A stretch of 64,000 nt of DNA from Geodermatophilus telluris (lineage in GTDB: Bacteria > Actinomycetota > Actinomycetes > Mycobacteriales > Geodermatophilaceae), in the NCBI RefSeq assembly GCF_900102745.1, contig NZ_FMZF01000001.1:682001-746000 (forward strand). The letters are read 5' to 3'. Below are positions 9,376 through 11,567 of this stretch, piece by piece. The position numbers were made by a program, and so were the translations under genes. The notes beneath the pieces were generated by a model. It was not told the origin of the DNA. It worked only from the letters and a program-made list of their open reading frames with translations, and made no database searches. Positions within the stretch are counted from its first letter, which is position 1; each line of letters begins with the position of its first letter.

Positions 9376-9669
9376 TCAGTCGAGGACGACGGTGGTCTCG
9401 TTGAGGCCGACGTCGGCGGCGAGGACGCGCTCGCCACGGCCGGTCGGCGCCAGCGAGCGCAGCTTCCACTCACCCGGGGCGGCGAAGAAGCGGAACTCGC
9501 CCTCGGGGCTGGTGACGACCTCGGCGGTGAACTCGTCGGTGGCGTCCAGCAGCCGGACGTAGGCACCGGCCACCGGGGCGCCGTCGTGCCAGACCTGGCC
9601 CTGGATCACCGTCTGGGTGTCCAGGTCGATGCCGGCGAGGGCACCGCCCTGCTTCGGGGCACCGCACAT
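9376..9669 (-). CDS. DUF1416 protein (SseC-like)
   Basis: A 97-residue protein of the DUF1416 family, called SseC in mycobacteria, where it lies next to the CysA2/CysA3 thiosulfate sulfurtransferase. It starts M-C-G-A-P-K-Q-G and has a compact beta-sandwich-like sequence (V-I-Q-G-Q-V-W-H-D-G, then G-A-Y-V-R-L-L-D). A single cysteine at residue 2 is conserved in the family. It follows the rhodanese gene by five bases in one operon, so it probably assists sulfur transfer. The exact role is not known. The ATG at 9669 is the family start. Confidence 0.9.
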   Translation of the reverse strand: MCGAPKQGGALAGIDLDTQTVIQGQVWHDGAPVAGAYVRLLDATDEFTAEVVTSPEGEFRFFAAPGEWKLRSLAPTGRGERVLAADVGLNETTVVLD

Positions 9670-10542: not shown

Positions 10543-10980
10543 TCAGGTGGTGCGGGCGGGGCGGACCCGCCGGACGGTCAGGTACAGCTCGCAGCCGAGA
10601 CAGAAGCCGGTGGCGGCGTTGAGCAGGGCCGCCACCAGGGCGAGCCCCGTGGCGACGGCGCCGAGCAGCGGCGCGCCGAGCAGGTAGCCCGCCGCGCCGA
10701 CGGCGGCGAAGACGAACCCGACGAGCTGGGCGAAGCGCAGCGGCGCCTCGGGCTCGCGCTCGCGCGCCGGACCCAGCCGCGGCGCGACGAGGGTGCGGAA
10801 CAGGACGGCGTAGGGCGCGTGGCGCAGCCCGGCCGCGGCGCCGACGGCGAACACCACCGCCTGGACGGCGACCAGCGGGCCGGAGCCGGTGAGCAGGACG
10901 ACGGCCAGGACGGCGCTGGTGACCCACGCGGCGAACCGGGGGCCGCGCACGTCGACCACGCGGGCAGGACTCTGGGACAT
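10543..10980 (-). CDS. DUF4395 membrane protein
   Basis: A 145-residue integral membrane protein with about four hydrophobic helices. The family signature V-D-V-R-G-P-R-F appears at the N-terminus and F-C-L-G-C-E-L-Y near the C-terminus. The C-x-x-C pair beside a membrane helix and the association with thioredoxin and rhodanese genes suggest a role in membrane thiol or sulfane-sulfur handling, but no reaction is established. It is the first full-size gene after the cysteine-rich leader peptide; its ATG lies 54 bases after the leader stop, within the likely attenuated region. Confidence 0.88.
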   Translation of the reverse strand: MSQSPARVVDVRGPRFAAWVTSAVLAVVLLTGSGPLVAVQAVVFAVGAAAGLRHAPYAVLFRTLVAPRLGPAREREPEAPLRFAQLVGFVFAAVGAAGYLLGAPLLGAVATGLALVAALLNAATGFCLGCELYLTVRRVRPARTT

Positions 10981-11015
10981 CGATGGGCTCTCCGGACGGC
11001 GATCGGGGCACGTCT

Positions 11016-11034
11016 GGGCGGAGCGGGGCCGCCC
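11016..11034 (-). promoter_or_regulatory. Hairpin directly after the Cys leader peptide (putative attenuator)
   Basis: The minus-strand sequence after the leader TGA begins GGGCGG, seven bases, CCGCCC: a perfect six-base-pair hairpin touching the stop codon. A ribosome finishing or stalling in the leader would alter its folding. It lies upstream of the DUF4395 ribosome site, so it could couple leader translation to expression of the sulfur operon. Confidence 0.5.
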
Positions 11035-11109
11035 TCAGGCGGCGCGACAGAGGCAGCTGCCGACGCGGCACAGGTCGACTGTGCGGCGCGAGGTCAGCAG
11101 GGTGCCCAC
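11035..11109 (-). CDS. Cysteine-rich leader peptide (24 residues) of the sulfur operon
   Basis: A short frame from GTG (11109-11107) to TGA encodes M-G-T-L-L-T-S-R-R-T, then V-D-L-C-R-V-G-S, then C-L-C-R-A-A. The R-R-x-V-D-L-C-R-V core with trailing cysteines matches the short peptides found before sulfur-assimilation genes in Streptomyces and mycobacteria, where polycysteine leaderless frames act as cysteine-responsive attenuators. Three of the last eleven codons are cysteine (TGC, TGC, TGT). TACCCT ends six bases before the GTG, so the mRNA should be leaderless. A hairpin starts directly at the stop and DUF4395 begins 54 bases downstream. When cysteine is scarce, stalling in the Cys codons should open the leader and raise expression of the operon; this regulatory model is inferred. 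Confidence 0.8.
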   Translation of the reverse strand: MGTLLTSRRTVDLCRVGSCLCRAA

Positions 11110-11121
11110 GCGGCGAGGGTA
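11110..11121 (-). promoter_or_regulatory. Leaderless promoter of the Cys leader/sulfur operon
   Basis: TACCCT (11121-11116, minus strand) followed by six bases and the GTG of the leader peptide. It starts six bases after the thioredoxin stop, so the operon can be transcribed apart from the thioredoxin gene. Confidence 0.5.
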
Positions 11122-11126
11122 GCCGA

Positions 11127-11567
11127 TCACGACGGCGCCCCCGTGTGGGCGTCGACGACGGCGGTGAGCTCGTCGGGCCGGGGCGCGCCGCTGCTGCGGC
11201 CGAGCAGCCGGCCGCGGCGGTCGAGGTAGAACAGCGTGGGGGTGCGGCGGACGCCGAGCTCGCGGACGGCGTCGAGGTGGCTCTCCGCGTCGACGTGCAC
11301 GTAGGCCAGGCCCGGGCGGGTCGACTCCAGGTGCTGCAGCCGGGCGCGCGTCGTCCGGCAGGGTCCGCAGAACGCGGTGGAGAACTGGACGACGGTGAGG
11401 TCGGCGTCCCCGGGCCGCACGCCCAGGCCCTCGAGCACCGCGGTCGGTCCGCCCACCGTCTCCTCCTCCGCCGCGCGCACCCTGCCGTCGCGGGCGCGCA
11501 CCCACCAGGCCGCCGCGGCGGTCAGGACCAGTGCCGCGACGAGCACCAGCACCCCGGTCCCGCTCAT
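11127..11567 (-). CDS. Membrane-anchored thioredoxin-like protein
   Basis: A 146-residue thioredoxin-fold protein with an N-terminal hydrophobic anchor (V-L-V-L-V-A-A-L-V-L-T-A-A) and the active site F-C-G-P-C. T-P-T-L-F-Y-L-D supplies the cis-proline region. It resembles the thioredoxin ThiX next to cysA2 in M. tuberculosis. The fold probably faces the periplasm if the anchor is N-in, but the orientation is not certain. The ATG at 11567 directly precedes the membrane helix. It lies immediately upstream of the Cys leader and the DUF4395-rhodanese operon, implying shared thiol chemistry. Confidence 0.88.
   Translation of the reverse strand: MSGTGVLVLVAALVLTAAAAWWVRARDGRVRAAEEETVGGPTAVLEGLGVRPGDADLTVVQFSTAFCGPCRTTRARLQHLESTRPGLAYVHVDAESHLDAVRELGVRRTPTLFYLDRRGRLLGRSSGAPRPDELTAVVDAHTGAPS

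Follow-up and report, generated by a model that had tools for sequence, protein, structure and literature searches.

On the strength of curated model matches and of the leaders published from mycobacteria, the 24-codon reading frame ahead of the DUF4395–rhodanese–DUF1416 operon of Geodermatophilus telluris can be assigned to the known kind of cysteine-attenuator leader peptides, as its Geodermatophilaceae member. The kind itself is already known; what is added here is an RNA switch specific to the family and a codon rule that runs through the class. We consider it rather probable that the leader serves as a cysteine-responsive attenuator of this operon, in which a ribosome stalled at a UGU codon would turn the RNA switch toward expression.

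The leader and its locus

The leader lies on the minus strand at 11035–11109 of the window, the 64,000-nucleotide stretch of DNA that was analysed. It begins with GTG (11109–11107), its sense codons run to 11038 and it ends in TGA (11037–11035), encoding (M)GTLLTSRRTVDLCRVGSCLCRAA. Its three Cys codons, numbers 14 (TGC, 11070–11068), 19 (TGC, 11055–11053) and 21 (TGT, 11049–11047), fall among the last 11 codons, spaced and without a run, and the rhodanese operon comes next. This frame with its three Cys codons, proposed in the initial annotation for the gap between thioredoxin and DUF4395, was reproduced from the sequence by script. The thioredoxin-like gene upstream ends at 11127. Downstream, on the minus strand, follow the DUF4395 gene (10543–10980; PF14340, 153 bits), a rhodanese-type sulfurtransferase with two stretches matching PF00581 (9675–10508), which we take to be of the CysA2/SseA type, and a DUF1416 gene (9376–9669; PF07210, 131 bits).

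The sequence TACCCT (11116–11121, minus strand) is a putative −10 box of a leaderless promoter; the six bases between it and the GTG were confirmed, and from this layout the leader mRNA is predicted to begin at the GTG itself, at 11109. The arrangement is conserved. All 101 rhodanese-linked loci examined below have TANNNT 6–10 nt upstream of an in-frame ATG or GTG (6–8 nt in 98); shuffling the upstream DNA left on average 1.8 such loci, and never more than 5 of the 101. As a class-wide rule the leaderless layout was rejected: among further leaders the strict test was passed by 31 of 83, and in the held-out set by 11 of 20, counts taken without a shuffled control. A scan of 10850–11250 for generic sigma-70 promoters and terminators found neither; intrinsic terminators (a stem followed by a T run), the hallmark of a classical transcription attenuator, numbered zero in this interval, so the output must go through Rho or through translation. 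Rfam at gathering thresholds gave no match at the leader locus. Its one match in the window was the actinobacterial sRNA Ms_IGR-5 (RF02471; 2955–3211, plus strand, 86.8 bits).

Two curated models recognize the leader. It scored 29.5 bits with NF042934, "putative leader peptide" (cis_reg_atten), above the cut-off of 27 (27.4 bits when the whole genome was searched). With NF042933, "Ms5788A family Cys-rich leader peptide", it reached 41.3 bits (E 8.7e-11), under a cut-off of 45 that was attained in 14 of 118 genomes. These matches bear out the earlier assignment to the polycysteine attenuator leaders. The NF042933 model matched in 108 of the 118 genomes, which were sampled from genus to order and included the source genome; one stretch was taken per matching genome, the source genome being represented by the window. 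A rhodanese match followed the leader in 101 of the 108 loci. DUF4395 stood between leader and rhodanese in 58 of these 101 and had no match in 43, where 79–353 nt separate the leader stop from the rhodanese. The leader therefore goes with the rhodanese, which is its likely target, in keeping with the sulfane-sulfur chemistry suggested in the initial annotation. In five loci (L036, L038, L054, L068 and L093) a remnant of the DUF4395 start was seen by eye behind an intact leader, an apparent loss of the gene.

Among the 80 named loci retained, the nearest DUF4395 genes came from Geodermatophilus, Blastococcus, Klenkia and Modestobacter, with identity of up to 90%, a neighbourhood that places the leader in the Geodermatophilaceae. 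The broader NF042934 matched in 199 of the 296 class genomes searched, many with several copies and some with at least ten, and in 19 of 296 genomes sampled across the whole phylum. The source genome itself holds four further leaders of the NF042934 type, at C5:116843 (L151), C2:1042246 (L152), C12:3239 (L150) and C3:927162 (L153), the last scoring under the cut-off of the model.

Codon choice at the conserved cysteines

For comparison across loci, codons were numbered from the aspartate of the conserved VD, taken as 0, so that leader codon 14 is +2 and codon 21 is +9. The codon table covers 101 of the 108 loci, seven without a rhodanese match being left out. Conservation of the Cys codons, on which the initial annotation had staked its reading, held in these loci: Cys was present at +9 in 101/101, at +2 in 94/101 and at +7 in 84/101. 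The choice of codon differed with position. At +9 (11047–11049, minus strand), the proposed decision codon, Cys was encoded by TGT in 100 of 101 loci, against 6% TGT among the Cys codons of neighbouring genes. At +2 (11068–11070, minus strand) it was encoded by TGC in all 94 Cys-bearing loci, and at +7 by TGC in 78 and TGT in 6.

The same rule was seen in 83 further leaders, mostly from other loci. Cys occupied +9 in 76 of them and was encoded there by TGT in 73, compared with 7 of 76 Cys codons in downstream frames, and the Cys codons at +2 were 25 TGC and 3 TGT. These leaders were the matches of the 118-genome and phylum-wide searches other than the counted rhodanese-linked loci and those of the source genome; among them, G170 is a probable false match, and G346 and G389:C2 may be rhodanese-linked as well. 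Twenty held-out leaders, hand-picked one per family among the class-wide NF042934 matches listed, 19 of them from families new to the sample, had TGT at +9 in 19/20 and TGC at +2 in 9/9. Both the further and the held-out leaders had been located by protein models, which are blind to codon choice. The four other leaders of the source genome carry three TGT and one TGC (C5:116843) at +9, and second leaders of relatives carry TGT there in all seven cases. The TGT rule was broken at +9 in one ortholog (G089, which has its TGT at +7), in three leaders among the 76, in one of the held-out set and in one of the source genome.

Loci outside the Geodermatophilaceae (41, from mycobacteria, rhodococci and others), most of them with Cys runs, had TGT at +9 in 41/41, with TGT:TGC ratios in the same tracts of 27:8 at +7, 10:26 at +8, 23:3 at +10 and 30:6 at +11. 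Some of these loci are also in the 101-locus codon table. The set came from a pattern search that found a leader in 78 of 80 loci; besides the 41 analysed, it yielded 37 that were left out, including L284 ("Bacillus sp. AZ43") and two with broad labels (L286 and L290). Because the search pattern required Cys at +9, the presence of TGT there in 78/78 bears on codon choice only. We did not meet the UGU rule in the open-licence papers searched; it may be in print.

Several departures were recorded alongside. Four of the 83 further leaders (L188, L208, L209 and L239) have a stop codon, TGA or TAG, at +9 in place of UGU, perhaps giving a termination stall, and one (L195) has the two codons reversed, with TGT at +2 and TGC at +9. 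Where the codon at −2 (11082–11080 in the window) encodes Thr, as it does in 62 loci, ACA is used in 55 of them, compared with a background of 1.1%; this ACA might base-pair with the CTGTG found at the first Cys.

RNA pairing was rejected as the general cause of UGU at +9 (1,877 of 5,000 permutations in Geodermatophilaceae and 661 of 5,000 in de-duplicated paralogs; permutation counts, here and below, ignore kinship among loci). Pairing of the whole Cys tract was supported in the 41 loci outside the family (0/5,000).

UGU is taken here to be a slow wobble codon. A possible reading, to which we give rather less than even credence, is that the nascent chain arrests the ribosome: VDLxRxxS in the exit tunnel would slow it at +9, and UGU would add sensitivity to Cys-tRNA. 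The V, D, L and R residues are indeed kept as amino acids in the 101-locus codon table, though their codons vary. UGU is also held at +9 (41/41) inside Cys runs of mixed UGU and UGC, in a set whose pattern required Cys there, and 29 of the 76 further leaders and 8 of the 20 held-out leaders have a single Cys codon within the counted span. The varying V, D, L and R codons and the single-Cys leaders together suggest that the nascent chain may help. On the other hand, in some groups UGU could instead serve RNA pairing, which was supported in 21 other DUF4395 loci (6/5,000). Arrest by the nascent chain is compatible with the attenuator explanation, which does not fix the cause of the pause. The cluster of Cys codons stressed in the initial annotation is real; with 29 of 76 leaders having one Cys, the emphasis shifts to the last Cys and its fixed distance from VD.

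The stop hairpin and its proposed alternative partners

Directly after the stop, GGGCGG (11034–11029) pairs with CCGCCC (11021–11016) on the minus strand around a 7-nt loop (11028–11022), forming the hairpin H1 (11016–11034). The perfect 6-bp stem abutting the stop is as described in the initial annotation. A stem of at least 6 bp at the stop was present in 39 of 62 Geodermatophilaceae loci, against 5.1% of shuffles, and in 1 of 39 loci of other families, against 6.6% of shuffles. By these counts the hairpin is a feature of the Geodermatophilaceae and not of the whole leader class, a correction to the initial annotation.

We aligned 49 of the 62 loci, omitting six with a later stop and seven that were divergent or had a shifted hairpin. 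H1 was paired in 90.8% of the alignment cells, and in at most 60.9% when the arms were slid. Its covariation (0.246, against 0.141 in shuffled alignments) was not reached in any of 500 shuffles, whereas the count measures were unremarkable, with three double-change pairs (153 of 500 shuffles as high) and nine further pair types (46 of 500). RNAalifold consensus folds were weak (consensus −2.32 kcal/mol). A second hairpin, H2 (GACG/CGTC), was paired in 96.9% of cells but is nearly invariant (72/500) and hence uninformative. The best stem near the stop begins 14–16 nt from the UGU in 37 of the 62 loci, and in four of the six genomes whose stop comes 9 nt later it still begins at 15 nt. For the other 25 loci, the window included, the best stem was another one or none, often the leader tail with the 5′ arm, a stem that would belong to the "off" fold.

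Four segments were defined: the leader tail after the UGU (segment 1; 11038–11046), the 5′ and 3′ arms of H1 (segments 2 and 3) and the DUF4395 ribosome-binding region, CCGTCC with the Shine–Dalgarno (SD) sequence GGAGAG (segment 4; 10988–10999, minus strand), which can pair with the tail and 5′ arm in a helix termed P2; the tail is a candidate partner of either the ribosome-binding region or the 5′ arm. Tails matched the SD regions of their own loci better than those of others. With 52 of the 58 DUF4395 loci (six with a doubtful gene start dropped), native pairs averaged −16.6 kcal/mol and swapped pairs −13.9 (0 of 5,000 permutations), and two other windows of the leader, used as controls, gave 4,008 and 4,047 of 5,000. 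Within the 49-row alignment, swapped partners did as well as native ones in 0 of 5,000 permutations for segments 2 with 3, for 1 with 4 and for 1 plus 2 with an extended segment 4, in 52 for 3 with 4 and in 138 for 1 with 2; the pairs expected not to form gave 690, 4,113, 3,995 and 3,042. Segment 2 alone with the extended segment 4 did no better than swapped (2,036/5,000). P2 was paired in 77.7% of cells (at most 51.2% when slid), and its covariation was matched in 0 of 500 shuffles, yet a slide by one column equals its score (0.134 versus 0.133); double changes (480/500) and pair types (470/500) were unremarkable. In the window itself segments 1 and 4 pair weakly, at −3.3 kcal/mol where the loci average −7.6.

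The pairing of tail and SD region was also followed beyond these loci. In 41 new DUF4395 loci outside the Geodermatophilaceae it gave 45 of 5,000 (control 3,224), and where the rhodanese follows directly it was marginal (219; control 4,980). As a class-wide rule it was rejected: 64 of the 76 further leaders, treated as paralogs, gave 11 of 5,000, but the control window gave 81, and once duplicates were removed the 53 left gave 419 against 403 for the control.

These results are consistent with a switch that the position of the ribosome would set. A shortage of charged tRNA-Cys would make the ribosome pause with the UGU of codon 21 in its A site. Because the paused ribosome would cover the tail codons of segment 1, segment 2 would be free to pair with segment 3 as H1; the tail, lying under the ribosome, could not pair with segment 4, and translation of DUF4395 would be on. 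With cysteine plentiful, the ribosome would pass codon 21 and H1 would be melted or outcompeted; after its passage the tail and 5′ arm would form a helix together or else bind segment 4, and translation would be off. The hairpin of the initial annotation, present as described, makes better sense as the "on" arm in such a switch, which pairs the tail with the ribosome-binding region in its other state. The Canestrari model of mycobacterial leaders is said to work in a related manner, a stalled ribosome preventing sequestration of the ribosome-binding site that follows.

The switch was modelled with a ribosome whose footprint was assumed to extend 16 nt upstream and 12 nt downstream of the first base in the A-site codon. 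In the window the folding model gave H1 a probability of 0.94 when the ribosome stood at Cys21; the value was 0.01 at Cys19, and 0.00 at Cys14, at the stop and in free RNA alike. Moved codon by codon along 62 loci, the ribosome gave a mean of about 0.4 up to +5, then 0.48 at +6, 0.59 at +7, 0.79 at +8, 0.78 at +9, 0.54 at +10 and 0.09 at +11; the probability exceeded 0.5 at +8 and +9 in 51 and 52 of the 62 loci, respectively. The peak coincides with the invariant UGU and its neighbour, in a scan that is blind to codon identity but for which H1 is defined by its distance from the UGU. Without any ribosome, the mean probability was 0.41, and 21 of the 62 loci exceeded 0.5. Modelled freedom of the SD sequence showed a small gain in the window, from 0.23 to 0.29. 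It went from 0.24 to 0.32 in 31 Geodermatophilaceae loci and from 0.22 to 0.22 in 21 others, the choice of SD being doubtful in several. Changes above 0.1 were upward in 12 and downward in 3 of the 31, and 3 and 3 of the 21; with a ribosome stalled at the first Cys as the reference, the corresponding numbers were 15 and 1 of 31, and 4 and 3 of 21.

An output at the level of transcription seems unlikely to us. In this alternative, stalling or clearance of the ribosome would expose or hide RNA for Rho, the hairpin would be incidental or a pause site, and the operon would be switched rather than the DUF4395 ribosome-binding site. Rho has been proposed for mycobacterial cys leaders in passages of Seliverstov 2005 (PMC1262725), and such an output would suit the 43 of 101 loci in which the rhodanese follows without DUF4395 between, some of which, as judged by eye, retain the hairpin together with part of the start of DUF4395. 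It leaves the partner-specific complementarity between tail and SD region unexplained, however, and the scan of 10850–11250 found no terminator-like site. That the frame encodes a small Cys-rich protein acting in trans, for example in metal or sulfur binding, is most improbable: most of the 101 loci do conserve Cys at +2, +7 and +9, but 29 of the 76 further leaders carry just a single Cys, the synonymous choice at +9 is almost fixed, and the leader tail complements the ribosome-binding region of the neighbouring gene.

Returning to the attenuator, we suggest, tentatively and with some doubt, that leaders of the Actinomycetia are position-coded stall devices rather than simple runs of Cys codons. 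The nascent V/I-D-L-x-R-x-x-S/G would make the UGU at +9 the productive stall site, UGC at +2 would avert an early stop, and the hairpin that the Geodermatophilaceae have some 15 nt further on would be positioned to read that very stall. The loose idea of Cys-codon attenuators then becomes a prediction about a single codon: replacing the UGU of codon 21 by its synonym UGC should change the behaviour of the switch, and changing the UGC of codon 14 should matter less. The codon rule would also help to explain how single-Cys leaders function, and it could pinpoint the decisive codon in many actinobacterial genes annotated as "putative leader peptide".

Comparison with known leaders and attenuators

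Passages of Shell 2015 (PMC4633059) describe a mycobacterial sORF before cysA2/Msmeg_5788 with ribosome occupancy in M. smegmatis and suggest cysteine attenuation for it. Actinobacterial cys leader peptides were listed earlier, the mode of regulation being left open (Seliverstov 2005, PMC1262725), and cysteine-responsive attenuation in mycobacteria was reported by Canestrari 2020, whose mechanism is termed translation attenuation in a passage of PMC13236596. Outside the Actinobacteria, a ribosome-stall reading of Cys codons has been proposed for uORFC-8-2, the cysS uORF attenuator of Rhodobacterales (PMC8632094). It has Cys codons in the leader in common with ours, but its Cys codons are in tandem and mostly UGC, a U run fits an intrinsic terminator, and the gene is a different one.

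Leaders of the Ms5788A type (NF042933) resemble the present one in their place before a rhodanese, the leaderless layout, the VDLCRV core and the Cys codons near the stop; ours differs in scoring under the cut-off (41.3 versus 45), in its three spaced Cys and in having DUF4395 before the rhodanese. With NF042934 it shares a 19-residue core and scores over the cut-off (29.5 versus 27). That family is broad, and its members at other loci follow the UGU rule without the pairing of tail and SD region.

Attenuators of the trp and erm type consist of four segments with alternative pairings, between which the position of the ribosome decides. The leader in the window would have a like architecture, with four segments, alternative pairings and a ribosome whose position would decide between them; it differs in that no terminator was found in 10850–11250, and its proposed output is access to the ribosome-binding site.
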